54,718 nucleotides of DNA from Patescibacteria group bacterium (GTDB lineage: Bacteria > Patescibacteriota > Patescibacteriia > Patescibacteriales > GWC2-42-12): contig JAQTVB010000005.1 in the NCBI GenBank assembly GCA_028707005.1, forward strand, positions 1 through 54,718. Direction: 5' to 3'. Below the pieces are notes generated by a model. The model worked only from the letters and a program-made list of their open reading frames with translations. It was not told the DNA's origin and did no database searches. This document shows positions 5,941-12,825 of this stretch, one piece after another. Numbering within the stretch: the first letter of the stretch is position 1; every line of letters begins with the position of its first letter. A program made the position numbers and the translations under genes.

Positions 5941-6720
5941 CTAGCTCCTGCGATTGAACGCCAAAGTCGCGACAGAGACTACCACGGCTGAAAAAGCCAA
6001 GAGGATGAAAATATTAACATGAATCGGATACAAAAAGAGTTTTTGCGCCAAGGCGGCCGGCACGCCGCCTAAAATTATCTGCCTCATGCCGTCCACGCCA
6101 TAAGTCAAAGGATTAATGCGCGATAAAACCGTCATCCATAACGGTACGTTGGTGAGCGGAAAAAATGCGCCGGACAGGAAAAACATGGGAAAAATCAAAA
6201 CTTGCATGACAATGCCGAAACTTTCCGTGGTTTTCATGAGTGAAGCGATTAACAGCCCTAAGCCGGCGATGGCAAAAGCCAATAACATCATCATCAAAAA
6301 TAGCTTGACGATAATAACCAAGCTAAGCTGAATATGTATGAACGGAGCCAAAAGCAACAGCAACAAGGCCTGCGTGGAAGCTATGGTGATCGCGCCCAAA
6401 ATCTTGCCCACCACAATAGAAGTGCGCGCCACCGGCGCCACTAAAATTTCTTTAAGAAAGCCGAATTCCCTGTCCCAAACCGTGGAAACCGTGGAAAAGA
6501 AGGCGATGCCCATGACGTTCATGGCGATGATGCCCGGATACATGAATTTCATGTAATCAACTCCGAAGCCGCCTTGCGCTAAAGTTCCGCCCAGGCCGGC
6601 GCCAAAAATCACCAAAAACATCAGCGGCTGTAAAAGCGTGGAAAATATCCTGGCTTTGTCGCGGACATATCTGATATTTTCCCGTTTCCAAATTGTATAG
6701 ATGGCTCTTAATTCTTTCAT
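5941..6720 (-). CDS. ABC-2 type transporter permease
   Basis: ABC-2 membrane domain, multiple TM, DrrB-like. Confidence 0.9.
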   Translation of the reverse strand: MKELRAIYTIWKRENIRYVRDKARIFSTLLQPLMFLVIFGAGLGGTLAQGGFGVDYMKFMYPGIIAMNVMGIAFFSTVSTVWDREFGFLKEILVAPVARTSIVVGKILGAITIASTQALLLLLLAPFIHIQLSLVIIVKLFLMMMLLAFAIAGLGLLIASLMKTTESFGIVMQVLIFPMFFLSGAFFPLTNVPLWMTVLSRINPLTYGVDGMRQIILGGVPAALAQKLFLYPIHVNIFILLAFSAVVVSVATLAFNRRS

Positions 6721-6744
6721 AAATAATGTTTTCTCCTAACAGGA

Positions 6745-6955
6745 ATGAAAATTTCTAATTATTCTAATTTCTAATTAACCTAATCAAGCGCTAATGACCA
6801 AATCCCAATGTCCAATGACCAATAAAATTCCAAACCCCAAGTCCTAATTTTTTCTTAGGATTTAAAATTTGGGGTTTTGTTGGTCATTGTGGTTTGGAAT
6901 TTGGGATTTTATTAGAAATTAGGTCAATTAGGTTAATTAGAAATTAACAATTTTA
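6745..6955. repeat. AT-rich imperfect inverted repeat (MITE-like)
   Basis: Left arm CCAAATCCCAATGTCCAATGACCAA vs right arm TTGGTCATTGTGGTTTGGAATTTGGG; TTTCTAATTAACCTAAT termini; second copy near 27220-27400. Confidence 0.7.
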
Positions 6956-7921
6956 GTGCTTCATTCTCATCCTCCGCCTCATCAAGTCTTTGCTTGAGGC
7001 TTCTTCTTCGCGGATTTTTTTGCCGGTTAAAGTTAAAAATACATCGTCCAAAGTCGGTTTTCTTAGTTCCACCGAATCGATCTTCTCCGTTAACTCATTG
7101 AACAGCCGAGGTAAAAATTTTTCTCCATCCGCCACTTCAATTTTTATTTTATTATCTTCTTCTTTGATTTTTAAATCAAATCGGCGGGCAATCGCCTGTT
7201 TTAATTTTAGCGGATCGGCCGCGGTAAGGGTGATGATCTCTCCGCCCACTATCTTTTTTAAATTGGCCGGCGTGTCTAAAGCGACGATCTTGCCGCGGTC
7301 AACGATGGCGATGCGGTCGCAATATTCAGCTTCATTCAGATAATGCGTGGTCATGAAAATCGTCATCTCTTTCTCTTTTTTCAATTTCAAGATGTAATGC
7401 CAAATATTAAATCTGGTCTGCGGGTCCAGGCCGATGGTCGGCTCGTCCAAAAACATCACTTTGGGGTAATGAATCAGGCCGCGCGCGATTTCCAGCCGCC
7501 GCTTCATGCCGCCGGAAAAAGTCTTAACGATCGCTCCCCGCCTATCCCATAAATCAACCAGCTGTAAAACCTCCGGCAAGCGTTCTTTAAAACTCTGCTT
7601 TTCCACATGATATAAATCGGCATGAAAATATAGATTTTCCTGCGCAGTAAGTCTGTCGTCTAAGGACGAATCCTGGAATACCAGGCCGATGGCTTGTCTT
7701 ACCGAATTTCTTTGGCTGCCGACATCAAAACCGTCGATCGTCGCTTGTCCGGAGTCCGGCTTTAATAAGGTGGCCAGCATGCTGATAGTCGTTGATTTGC
7801 CCGCCCCATTCGGCCCGAGAAAGCCGAAAATTTCGCCCTGCTTCACGTTGAAAGAAATATCATCAACGGCCGTAAGCTTGTCGTATCTTTTTGTTAAATT
7901 TTTTACTTCAATAATATTCAT
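6953..7921 (-). CDS. ABC transporter ATP-binding protein (DrrA-like)
   Basis: GPNGAGKSTT Walker A, FSGGMKRRLEIARGL signature, FLDEPTIGLDP Walker B. Confidence 0.95.
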   Translation of the reverse strand: MNIIEVKNLTKRYDKLTAVDDISFNVKQGEIFGFLGPNGAGKSTTISMLATLLKPDSGQATIDGFDVGSQRNSVRQAIGLVFQDSSLDDRLTAQENLYFHADLYHVEKQSFKERLPEVLQLVDLWDRRGAIVKTFSGGMKRRLEIARGLIHYPKVMFLDEPTIGLDPQTRFNIWHYILKLKKEKEMTIFMTTHYLNEAEYCDRIAIVDRGKIVALDTPANLKKIVGGEIITLTAADPLKLKQAIARRFDLKIKEEDNKIKIEVADGEKFLPRLFNELTEKIDSVELRKPTLDDVFLTLTGKKIREEEASSKDLMRRRMRMKH

Positions 7922-7982
7922 AAAATGCATCAATAAATTCGTTTGCCTTTCATTATAGCATACTTTATATTTGTAAAAAAAT

Positions 7983-8012
7983 AGCGGGAACCGTCCTAAG
8001 ACAATTCCCGCC
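7983..8012 (-). terminator. Terminator downstream of the 8045 gene
   Basis: GCGGGAAttgtcttaggacggTTCCCGCtaTTTTTTT on the minus strand. Confidence 0.85.
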
Positions 8013-8044
8013 AGTGAAACCGCAAAACCTCCTTAAGCCCTGGG

Positions 8045-8731
8045 TTATTGATGGGCTGGCCCGCAACGGAAAACAGCCTTGCTGTCCGTGCCCAACCCCC
8101 CGGATGCAAGGTAACTCCCCTCCACGACAGAGGCAACGCAACCGGGAAGTGAAAAATCATCCAGCCAAATTGATACATCCTCCGGCAGAGCAGCGCGCGT
8201 GCTGGTTATTAGAGCCGTCCCCGGATAGCAGAGCCTACTCGGCCAGTTAATGACAGTTACTCCGGCTTCGACGATTTCTTTTAGCGCCGCAATCAGCCAC
8301 TTCTGGTATACCAGCCAGGTGGAGCAACCTAGGCTAAAGTGGATTTGCAAGGTGAGGTGTGAACGACCAAACTCCTGTTTTGCCTGCTGGATCGCGGCCA
8401 GAACTTGAGTTTTGGCCCAATCTTTTTCTTCCGCGGGATTGGCGGAAAGACGCAAACAGCGCCAGGCCAATTTTGCTTGCGCTAAAACCGTGATAGCTTT
8501 AGCAACGTCATCTGGCCTGCAGACGATCGGGATGATGATGGTAATGCCGTCCGGGGCGTATTCGGCAATCTCTTGGCACACTGGCCAGCCGACTTGAGAC
8601 GGATCAATAACCAGGTGTTTGATTTGGCGACCCGCCATGATCTCAAATACGGATTGCCCGGGAACTGCTGCCATCACTTCTTTTGCTGACTTAAAGACTA
8701 AATATTCTGCTGTTGTGGTTGTTGTGTTCAT
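8045..8731 (-). CDS. Diverged LeuA/HMGL-like TIM-barrel protein (tentative)
   Basis: C-terminal EAGVTVINWPSRLCYPGTALI...VSIWLDDFSLPGCVASVVEG resembles the aGAttiNiPDTvGY..P...vsvHcHNDlGLAvANslaav segment of 2-isopropylmalate synthase, with catalytic-motif residues altered. Confidence 0.4.
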   Translation of the reverse strand: MNTTTTTAEYLVFKSAKEVMAAVPGQSVFEIMAGRQIKHLVIDPSQVGWPVCQEIAEYAPDGITIIIPIVCRPDDVAKAITVLAQAKLAWRCLRLSANPAEEKDWAKTQVLAAIQQAKQEFGRSHLTLQIHFSLGCSTWLVYQKWLIAALKEIVEAGVTVINWPSRLCYPGTALITSTRAALPEDVSIWLDDFSLPGCVASVVEGSYLASGGLGTDSKAVFRCGPAHQ

Positions 8732-8789
8732 GATTTTTTCTGGTTTGTTTTTGATTTCTTGATTGAAAAAAGAGCATCCTCCTTTAAAC

Positions 8790-8819
8790 AAAAACCAGCT
8801 TCCTTTTGTGGAAAGCTGG
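8790..8819 (-). terminator. Attenuator terminator in the leader of the 8045 gene
   Basis: Minus strand CCAGCTTTCCacaaaaGGAAGCTGGTTTTT. Confidence 0.8.
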
Positions 8820-8843
8820 CTAATATTTATCTAAATCCATCAG

Positions 8844-8924
8844 TTAAACATTAGTAAACTTTCCACCGCGAAGCTGGCTAAGCAACAGGCCCAACAATAA
8901 GGTTTTGGCAGAAAATTTATTCAT
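8844..8924 (-). CDS. Leu-rich leader peptide
   Basis: ATG..TAA on the minus strand: MNKFSAKTLLLGLLLSQLRGGKFTNV, just 3' of a sigma70-like promoter and 5' of the attenuator hairpin. Confidence 0.6.
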   Translation of the reverse strand: MNKFSAKTLLLGLLLSQLRGGKFTNV

Positions 8925-8953
8925 GTTTCTATCCTATATCATGCATAATTTTT

Positions 8954-8991
8954 TGTCAACCCTTGACAATTTTAAACTTATATGATAAGAT
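8954..8991. promoter_or_regulatory. Divergent sigma70-like promoter pair
   Basis: + strand TTGACA(8963)-17nt-TAAGAT(8986); minus strand TTGACA (complement of 8954-8959) about 17 nt before TAGGAT. Confidence 0.65.
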
Positions 8992-9018: not shown

Positions 9019-9069
9019 ATGGGCTTTATTGATGCCATACTTTCGCAAATATTCGGCTCAAAAGAATAA
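9019..9069 (+). CDS. Possible 16-aa microprotein
   Basis: MGFIDAILSQIFGSKE between a consensus promoter (8963-8991) and a strong terminator (9138-9168). Confidence 0.35.
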   Translation: MGFIDAILSQIFGSKE

Positions 9070-9137
9070 AATGCTAATAGACTCGCCTGGTTTATTTTTT
9101 AGTCACTCTGATTAATAGACGCGTTTTGACTATTCAA

Positions 9138-9168
9138 AAACGCCGGCTTAATACCGGCGTTTTTTTGT
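9138..9168. terminator. Strong intrinsic terminator
   Basis: AAAAACGCCGGcttaataCCGGCGTTTTTTT. Confidence 0.9.
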
Positions 9169-10044: not shown

Positions 10045-11091
10045 TTAACCATCCATCCGTTCTTTTCTCTTATACCAACCTGGCGGTAAAGTTACTCTGT
10101 TTTCTTTTGCGTATTGCTCGGCTTGTTTTAAAATGGCTAGCGCTTCCTTGTTCTTCCCTTCTTCTGAAAGGTCGGCAAAATCTTGGAATAGCATTACTAG
10201 ATGTCCCAGATATTTTTCTGTGCGACGCTTTTCAAAACCGCCCGGTTGATCAGTGCCTAAACCCGAATAAATAGTGGCATTGGGAAATTGCTCTCCGGCT
10301 GCCCAAAGAGCGGTCAATAAAGTTCCGCCCTTATCAACCATATCATCTGCTATGATAACCGTTTGCGTAGTAGCGTCAGTCTCGCTTGCTTCAAATACCG
10401 CCTTTTTGCTTTCTTTGTCCACTGCAATTACAAAAGAATCCACATTAATAGAATGATCGCCATATTTCTCTATGATTTTTTTTACCAATTCAACATAAAC
10501 GCTCCCGCCGCTTAAAATACCGCTAATTTTTGTATTTTTTTTAAAAAATTTTTCAACCGCATTCACGGTTAAGTCGTTTGTTCCTCTTAAAAATTCTTGG
10601 AGCACATATCTTATCTCATCCTGCGTCAACCTGTGGTCTGGTGAAGTTATTGATTGCGCTTTTTCTTCAACCCGGGCAAGCATATCGTCTATTGCTCGAA
10701 AAAGATTTGTAATTGAAAACTGCGGCGGCGTGGCGTGCCCGGAATCGGCATCCTTATCCGCATATTCCTCTTTCTTTTTTTGGAGCTCTTCAAGAAAAAC
10801 AGGGCTGATTGGAGACGGTTTCTCGCTAAGCGCTTGGTTAAGAATCACATCGGCCATCTGGGTAGAAAATTCATGGGCTTCTTCTAAATAATTTTGACGC
10901 AAACTCGGATCTTGCTCCGCCAATGCTTGTGTTCTTAATTTGCGTAAAATACCAATCCCGCCTTGTAATTTTCTTTCGTTTTCTAACTTAAATTCTTTTT
11001 CTTGTTCAGTGAGCGGCGGCCGCTCGCGCTTCTTAAAAGCAACGAGGCTGCCGCTTAGCATTGATTCAAAACTCATTGAGTTAAATGGCAT
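10045..11091 (-). CDS. Phosphoribosyltransferase-domain protein
   Basis: PRPP loop TQTVIIADDMVDKGGTLLTAL. Confidence 0.7.
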   Translation of the reverse strand: MPFNSMSFESMLSGSLVAFKKRERPPLTEQEKEFKLENERKLQGGIGILRKLRTQALAEQDPSLRQNYLEEAHEFSTQMADVILNQALSEKPSPISPVFLEELQKKKEEYADKDADSGHATPPQFSITNLFRAIDDMLARVEEKAQSITSPDHRLTQDEIRYVLQEFLRGTNDLTVNAVEKFFKKNTKISGILSGGSVYVELVKKIIEKYGDHSINVDSFVIAVDKESKKAVFEASETDATTQTVIIADDMVDKGGTLLTALWAAGEQFPNATIYSGLGTDQPGGFEKRRTEKYLGHLVMLFQDFADLSEEGKNKEALAILKQAEQYAKENRVTLPPGWYKRKERMDG

Positions 11092-11728: not shown

Positions 11729-12616
11729 TTAATAGCGGACGATTTCACCGAGCAAAGTGACTCCCATCTCGTGCAGTTTCGCCTGAACGAAGCCGGCGAG
11801 TCCTTCCTTGGGTTTAAAGAACAGTAAACGACGGAGGTTAAAAATGTAATCGCCACGATGGATATCAACAACACTCCGTAATTCTTCATCGGTCACTTGT
11901 ATCCGGTAGCAAACTGCCGGATTATTGCTGAGCGCGTAGCCTGATGACATATAAAGTACTGAGTACTCTGACATGCCTTGCTTAAACGGATTAACGTTTC
12001 CCTCCGTGAATAGCCGCTGGTCAAAATAAAAAACGACGAGAATCTCGTTCCGATTAGGACAATAGAACGAGACTTGAACGTGACGAAGAAAATCGGTGTC
12101 GGTCGCGAGATTAATCTCGCATCGGTGAGTCGACGACCAAATAGAACCGTCCCTTTCGTCCGGATAAAAGATTTCCATTTCATGGCATATCGCGTTGGTG
12201 CTGCCAGTGGGCATATTCCATGCATTGCTCTCTGCACCACGGAAACGCCCGCCCCAGTTTTCGCAACCGATCACATGTCTTCTTTGAGCCAGCTTCTTCC
12301 AGAAAAACTTCGTGAAGCCCAGCCCCAGGCCTAGACCCTCAAAGGAGGCGGCCATGATGACCCAGCGTTCGCCGTTAGCTTGCATGACCCGCCAAACTTC
12401 CTTCAACCCCTTCCTCATGGCGATTGACGGCCGACAAGTATCCGATATTACCGGCCCAACGCTCAACTCTTCCAAGTTGGTCGGGCTCGTCGCCGTTAAG
12501 AGCAAAGCCAGCAATGTCTTGGTTTCGCTCTGGCATGCCGGGAAGTTGCTTAACACGCTGCCTTCCCAAGCCCGCCAGGTTTTTGTCTTTGTGTAATCTA
12601 ACTCTTTTACTTTCAT
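11729..12616 (-). CDS. Hypothetical protein
   Basis: 295 aa ORF, long structured leader, terminator downstream. Confidence 0.6.
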   Translation of the reverse strand: MKVKELDYTKTKTWRAWEGSVLSNFPACQSETKTLLALLLTATSPTNLEELSVGPVISDTCRPSIAMRKGLKEVWRVMQANGERWVIMAASFEGLGLGLGFTKFFWKKLAQRRHVIGCENWGGRFRGAESNAWNMPTGSTNAICHEMEIFYPDERDGSIWSSTHRCEINLATDTDFLRHVQVSFYCPNRNEILVVFYFDQRLFTEGNVNPFKQGMSEYSVLYMSSGYALSNNPAVCYRIQVTDEELRSVVDIHRGDYIFNLRRLLFFKPKEGLAGFVQAKLHEMGVTLLGEIVRY

Positions 12617-12825
12617 TGTTAATGTCCTATTGGCTAGTTAGAACTTCACCGACTCTCGCCAGAGAGCTCTACGGTGAGCCGAGCCGTAGAAGTGAAGACC
12701 TCGGCGCACCCGCGCCTTGCCCTGAGGTAGTTTGAATCCGCGGCTTTTGGCTCTCCTGAGCCTGCTACCAGCCTGGCAGCTGCCGCTCACTCTCCCGAGT
12801 GCTTCTCTTGGACAATCAAAGAGAA
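12617..12825 (-). promoter_or_regulatory. Structured GC-rich leader (candidate riboregulator)
   Basis: About 200-nt leader with consecutive stem-loops: CTTCTCTT..AAGAGAAG, CACTC-GGGA-GAGTG, GGCTC-AGGA-GAGCC. Confidence 0.45.

Follow-up and report, generated by a model that had tools for sequence, protein, structure and literature searches.

The Patescibacteria, to which the locus belongs, are described as consistently without genes for amino-acid synthesis and as probable scavengers of amino acids (PMC12455944). The leu operon attenuator of enterobacteria (leuL) consists of a Leu-codon leader peptide, an antiterminator competing with an intrinsic terminator and a leuA-family gene downstream. 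An arrangement of this kind was predicted on the minus strand of a 54,718-nt stretch of DNA (hereafter the window; genome G000), 5' of a gene encoding a truncated relative of LeuA (LeuA*). How Patescibacteria sense amino-acid supply seems little studied, and no paper on attenuation in these bacteria was found in the literature searched, which misses most subscription journals. Here the analysis was extended to related genomes of the order, and the features are listed in Table 1.

Table 1. Features of the leucine leader unit in the window and of related units at other loci of the order
Feature	Position	Strand	Basis or remark
Sigma70-like promoter, TTGACA-17-TAGGAT	8931..8959	-	consensus match only
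Leader peptide ORF, ATG..TAA, encoding MNKFSAKTLLLGLLLSQLRGGKFTNV	8844..8924	-	sequence; G001 orthologue
Leu run of leader, residues 9-15	8900-8880	-	7 Leu in residues 9-18
Region 1, AGCCAGCTTC	8870..8879	-	can pair with terminator 3' arm in antiterminated fold
Region 2, antiterminator 5' arm, GTGGAAAGTTTACTAATGTTTAACTG	8841..8866	-	overlaps leader end and stop codon
Region 3, antiterminator 3' arm	8808..8835	-	last part doubles as terminator 5' arm
Intrinsic terminator, AGCCAGCTTTCCACAAAAGGAAGCTGGTT plus T tail	8793..8821	-	-14.6 kcal/mol; conserved in G001
LeuA*, 228-aa truncated LeuA (2-isopropylmalate synthase) remnant without catalytic motifs	8045..8731	-	homology, motif comparison
Intrinsic terminator after LeuA*	7982..8013	-	sequence
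Ile attenuator, MFKTAGQIISMIIAIIIKVKGLIAIDYGAV	L208 (G000:C38) 10317-10445	-	
Phe/Tyr/Trp attenuator, MLKTIQKTVFSFYFYWFSLGRAVFCGVLTN	L208 (G000:C38) 9046-9138	-	
Free-standing PF08502 gene	L067:6757-7179	+	one of five genomes
Free-standing PF08502 gene	L201:2940-3359	-	one of five genomes
Free-standing PF08502 gene	L190:4230-4652	-	one of five genomes
Free-standing PF08502 gene	L189:3912-4346	+	one of five genomes
Free-standing PF08502 gene	L068:6391-6780	-	one of five genomes

The original prediction described a sigma70-like promoter, an ATG..TAA leader with seven Leu in ten residues and a terminator on the minus strand, and all of these are present in the sequence. As an attenuator requires, the leader is a short ORF in which cognate codons, here Leu, follow one another in a run. 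The promoter calls for caution as the number of promoter-like sites found in the region was near that expected by chance; a TTGACA-like site also lies 5' of the corresponding leader in the same-genus genome G001. The predicted complementarity on the minus strand between GTGGAAAG (8866-8859) and CTTTCCAC (8815-8808) also held, as part of a helix longer than claimed, in which 8866-8841 pairs with 8835-8808 (region 2/region 3 duplex, -21.0 kcal/mol). Beyond that description, region 1 can pair with the 3' arm of the terminator, so that together with the region 2/region 3 helix the fold sequesters both terminator arms. By sequence, folding and covariation, the antiterminator and the intrinsic terminator are mutually exclusive, as expected of an attenuator. 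The RNA of leader and attenuator had a folding energy of -46.8 kcal/mol, where shuffled sequences averaged -28.9 kcal/mol (z -5.15, 0/200 shuffles). A further terminator follows LeuA*, so the unit looks monocistronic. On the same strand, AAAGGAGG (8779-8786) directly abuts an out-of-frame ATG located over 40 nt 5' of the point where LeuA* begins.

This element is very likely a ribosome-mediated transcription attenuator sensing charged leucyl-tRNA (probability about 0.86), the regulation itself being inferred from sequence comparison. Under this reading, when leucine is short, a ribosome would stall in the Leu run, leaving region 2 free to pair with region 3, so that no terminator would form and the downstream gene would be transcribed. 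When leucine is sufficient, a ribosome at the stop codon would cover region 2 and the terminator would form. Ribosome stalling, termination and readthrough are inferences, as is any role of LeuA*, in the absence of transcript, ribosome or reporter data.

Among 61 relatives searched, one useful match to the window protein emerged, a full LeuA of 568 aa in G001, with the leader MNKLSVKNLLLGLLLSQLCGGKFTSV directly 5' of its gene and the same layout as in the window. The two leader peptides are identical at 20/26 residues, while 15 codons differ, including seven Leu codons that remain Leu; in the main Leu run all six Leu codons have changed between G000 and G001 and all still encode Leu (leader dN/dS 0.07). 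Reading of the alignment in region 3 gave one compensatory A-U to G-C change and one broken pair. Region 1 is near-identical in the G001 leader (GAGCCAGCTC), yet lies outside the minimum free energy (MFE) pairing there, and the MFE structure of the G001 leader differs from that of G000, which counts against the attenuator reading. In G002 and G003, which belong to this genus too, neither a LeuA match nor a comparable leader was found, and weak matches to the leader DNA in G008, G004 and G003 covered just 30–37 nt. Separately, contig C12 of G001 (L069) carries a cluster resembling 2-oxoacid:ferredoxin oxidoreductase, succinyl-CoA ligase, homocitrate synthase (NCBIfam nifV_homocitr) and succinate dehydrogenase genes, which is unusual for Patescibacteria, or else a binning contaminant.

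Across the order, LeuA-type enzymes were detected in 15/111 genomes (tally at E 1e-30) and Leu-run leaders are present 5' of LeuA genes. Counting any location, Leu leaders occur in at least 20 genomes (including G000, G017, G018, G022, G026 and G042), with a LeuA-type gene directly downstream in 14 of them and G022 as a fifteenth, cut by the contig end. The criterion of a cognate downstream gene is met, with a LeuA-type gene in relatives and a leuA remnant in the window. Within 274 kb of related loci, all ATG-initiated short ORFs with ≥7 Leu in 10 residues (17/17) were attenuator leaders, and as a control only 1/196 other genes in the same loci had such a leader, itself an attenuator. The layout is common to all 20 genomes: Leu run, region 2, about 20–40 nt, region 3 and terminator. 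Conservation of the pairing was shown by swapping partners between species, an alignment-free covariation test that does not remove relatedness: mean native region 2/region 3 pairing was -22.2 kcal/mol compared with -14.5 kcal/mol for swapped partners, and 0/20,000 permutations reached the native energy. Formal counting on an alignment of 17 sequences, with the window left out, gave 91% paired cells and two-sided changes in 4/6 pairs, and the covariation score exceeded that of each of 500 shuffles and of every slid control. Direct MAFFT alignment misaligned the window and G001 leaders, so a covariance model (R1) was built from the 17 sequences without both; its match to the window in a direct search (E 8.2e-5) is therefore an independent test. 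With strict filters R1 missed the window in a whole-genome scan, and the genome counts are thus lower bounds. Single elements of this kind can arise by chance, but a merely fortuitous pairing of terminator and hydrophobic ORF is all but excluded by conservation in 20 genomes, the permutation result and the independent model match, unless these comparative results are artefacts. Lack of conservation of the Leu run or antiterminator pairing in homologues had been named as grounds for refutation; both are conserved, in G001 and in the 20 genomes with covarying arms, so that comparison supports leucine attenuation, with the regulation itself still inferred without expression or reporter data.

A leuA leader is not unique to the order, since Leu-run ORFs were found 5' of 19/76 (about a quarter) of leuA relatives from other phyla, a count that allowed GTG/TTG starts, did not take structures into account and included G024 itself. 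The G024 contig matches PETS01000121.1 (Candidatus Falkowbacteria) with full identity; the class is presumably ABY1.

The gene behind the window attenuator was predicted to encode a LeuA-like protein with altered catalysis, the resemblance lying in its C-half. Common descent of LeuA* with the LeuA family (PF00682 plus PF08502, TIGR00973) was supported by BLAST against G001 LeuA (1e-13, ~31% identity), by hhalign against a profile of 11 LeuA sequences (probability 90.6%, E 1.3e-6, residues 33–183 of 228) and by Foldseek, whose top hits were all isopropylmalate synthases (4ov9, 4ov4, 3hpz). The model used for the latter was a poor single-sequence AlphaFold prediction (mean pLDDT 57) and was taken as weak support alone. 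The prediction of an altered LeuA therefore held, no unrelated fold being found, and its confinement to the C-half held only in part given the extent of the homology. LeuA* has no Pfam match and nothing above family cut-offs (NCBIfam LeuA E 0.26). Neither TLRDG nor HCHND, motifs that vary little or not at all among the 11 LeuA relatives, is present, LVFKSAKEV and WLDDF standing in their place, and the C-terminal allosteric domain (PF08502) went unmatched both in LeuA* and in the rest of G000. The high G+C content common to LeuA* (0.527) and G001 leuA (0.534), against 0.419 for the window and near 0.42 for the contigs, is consistent with common ancestry. With the catalytic residues and the allosteric domain lost, the output of the unit is not expected to be leucine synthesis.

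One alternative is that the attenuator works or worked, but that the whole G000 unit is a decaying relic, with LeuA* a pseudogene and the switch not yet lost. In favor are the missing catalytic motifs and allosteric domain, the absence at the LeuA* start of a Shine-Dalgarno sequence, which is present in G001 leuA and seems to have been lost, and a codon-usage score (-0.017) below that of 31/31 window genes tested (lowest of 32); the last two point to a possibly relict output. Between G000 and G001, syntenic proteins mostly share 65–80% identity, so LeuA* has diverged far faster. Against the relic are a frame of 228 stop-free codons, when neutral drift of a control gene (less G+C-rich than LeuA*) to the same identity left 0/300 simulations stop-free with a mean of 7.8 stops, the leader dN/dS given above and purifying selection on proteins behind attenuators in other genomes (dN/dS 0.22 and 0.31). 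LeuA* is known from G000 only. The evidence is evenly balanced on whether the unit is decaying, and a functional or repurposed LeuA*, a role that could only be inferred, is as credible as a relic protein. Another alternative is a drug-sensing (ErmCL-like) leader controlling a DrrAB-type ABC transporter at 5941-7933, as an exporter of the drrA/drrB subfamilies follows. This is very unlikely, as a strong terminator (8013-7982) stands between LeuA* and the transporter, leuA follows this same leader in relatives, and no transporter of the kind lies next to leuA in G001.

The attenuator reading, as applied to the window, leaves a leucine switch in a genome apparently without the pathway, a point absent from the original prediction. 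The G000 assembly contained no match to PF00682 (HMGL-like), PF00330 (LeuC) or PF00920 (IlvD). The organism apparently can no longer make leucine, an inference from an incomplete assembly (95.75%, 43 contigs). Similarly, PF00330 had no match in 15/20 genomes with a Leu attenuator; matches in four of the remaining five had open frames of 660–734 aa, a length that fits aconitase rather than LeuC, and the G001 match is a 417-aa IPMI/homoaconitase-like protein. With PF00330 mostly missing or aconitase-sized, LeuA appears mostly solitary. All evidence is sequence comparison on mostly incomplete assemblies and missing enzymes could sit in unassembled parts; the pattern nevertheless recurs in many genomes, nearly complete ones included. 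In G024, a solitary citramalate synthase and LeuA lie in tandem (L071, 1132-2697 and 3114-4643), and no LeuC or IlvD match was found in that genome.

The window unit also proved to be one of an order-wide set of amino-acid attenuators, again unforeseen in the original prediction, with enzymes lost or reduced to fragments or small proteins in several lineages. Weak model matches at the related loci proved to be attenuators of other amino-acid specificity (Ile, Phe/Tyr/Trp and Asn), and a detector requiring leader, terminator and antiterminator returned units with Leu, Ile, Ile/Val and Phe/Tyr/Trp leaders throughout the order. One detector hit (12583-12735, plus strand) was judged spurious, having no supporting context. 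In some units the leader fits a cognate enzyme: an Ile run precedes citramalate synthase in G026 (TIGR00977 above cut-off), and Phe/Tyr/Trp leaders precede chorismate mutase in G056, together with what we take, by eye, to be prephenate dehydratase, prephenate dehydrogenase and aminotransferase genes. Genes following aromatic leaders in G006, G015 and G034 are likewise taken by eye to be DAHP-synthase-like. This fit in sister units supports the reading of the window as Leu attenuation. A Phe/Tyr/Trp model matched 49/111 genomes of the order, with only two weak matches outside it in an even sample of the class. The sister units also bear on the possibility that the Leu-rich peptide is a functional small membrane peptide, kept for hydrophobicity and not for codon sensing. 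The peptide is hydrophobic and conserved, and its synonymous changes preserve it, but every leader ends in a covarying arm pairing with the terminator, and the Ile, Phe/Tyr/Trp and Asn runs of sister leaders, several fitting the downstream enzyme, would be left unexplained; this possibility is very unlikely.

The outputs of the attenuators vary, and other units precede LeuA allosteric domains that stand alone, or else small orphan proteins. The LeuA_dimer domain (PF08502) stands free at attenuator loci in G017, G018, G036, G055 and G074 (dN/dS 0.22 for G018 against G036), and these proteins could possibly bind leucine or isoleucine. In G000 itself, the Ile and Phe/Tyr/Trp units on contig C38 lie downstream of a nucleoside diphosphate kinase-like gene and each is followed by small proteins of about 95–111 aa, the Ile-unit protein having relatives in G002 (E 1e-9) and G003 (E 1e-5). 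In G007, Leu, Ile and Phe/Tyr/Trp attenuators form an array of 1.7 kb (L188, G007:C7, 1088-2741, minus strand), and the small orphan ORFs (80–94 aa) after each of them had no confident Pfam match.

The mechanism proposed for the window is classical ribosome-mediated attenuation, and Leu leaders of leucine genes are known in other phyla. The window shares with enterobacterial leuL (Rfam Leu leader) the Leu-codon leader, the competing antiterminator and terminator and the leuA-family gene, and differs in its phylum, in being monocistronic, in placing region 2 at the leader's own end and stop codon, and in a downstream gene without catalysis where no leucine pathway was found. Rfam leader families gave no match in the window or six related loci, even at a relaxed threshold. 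In actinobacteria, Leu leader peptides were predicted by comparison in leuS attenuators and in a LEU element 5' of leuA, the latter a conserved pseudoknot, and leader mutations of Streptomyces coelicolor leuA did not behave as classical attenuation (PMC1262725). Leu leader peptides upstream of leucine genes are thus common to both, whereas in the order studied the arms and terminator are all present and covarying. In Staphylococcus aureus, a leucine-rich attenuator peptide of the BCAA operon regulates genes for branched-chain amino acid synthesis (PMC5794164), whereas the window has an apparently inactive remnant in a genome that seems to lack the pathway. What is new is the phylum, the use in genomes without the pathway and the stripped-down outputs.

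A bolder reading, which we hold no more firmly than its opposite, is that an amino-acid-dependent order keeps tandem attenuators (Leu, Ile, Phe/Tyr/Trp) as an amino-acid starvation regulon, with outputs that may have switched from biosynthesis to non-enzymatic proteins, namely free-standing allosteric domains, a dead LeuA barrel and small fast-evolving proteins. The remaining LeuA and citramalate synthase would then be solitary first-step enzymes, LeuC not being found, and their product would go elsewhere, for example to a host. Through the attenuators, genes that starvation probably induces in uncultured cells can be read from sequence, and in metatranscriptomics the ratio of leader to gene reads would indicate how well leucine, isoleucine and aromatic amino acids are supplied in situ. 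What starved cells do is a question posed by the free-standing allosteric domains and by the solitary first-step enzymes. In addition to the units above, an Asn-run leader MKRYCAQMNNNNNNWLKTGFFSCVKK with a terminator was observed in G021 (L061, G021:C8, 11513-11592, plus strand), and a similar Asn-rich leader with an antiterminator in G029 (L054, 12317-12403, minus strand).
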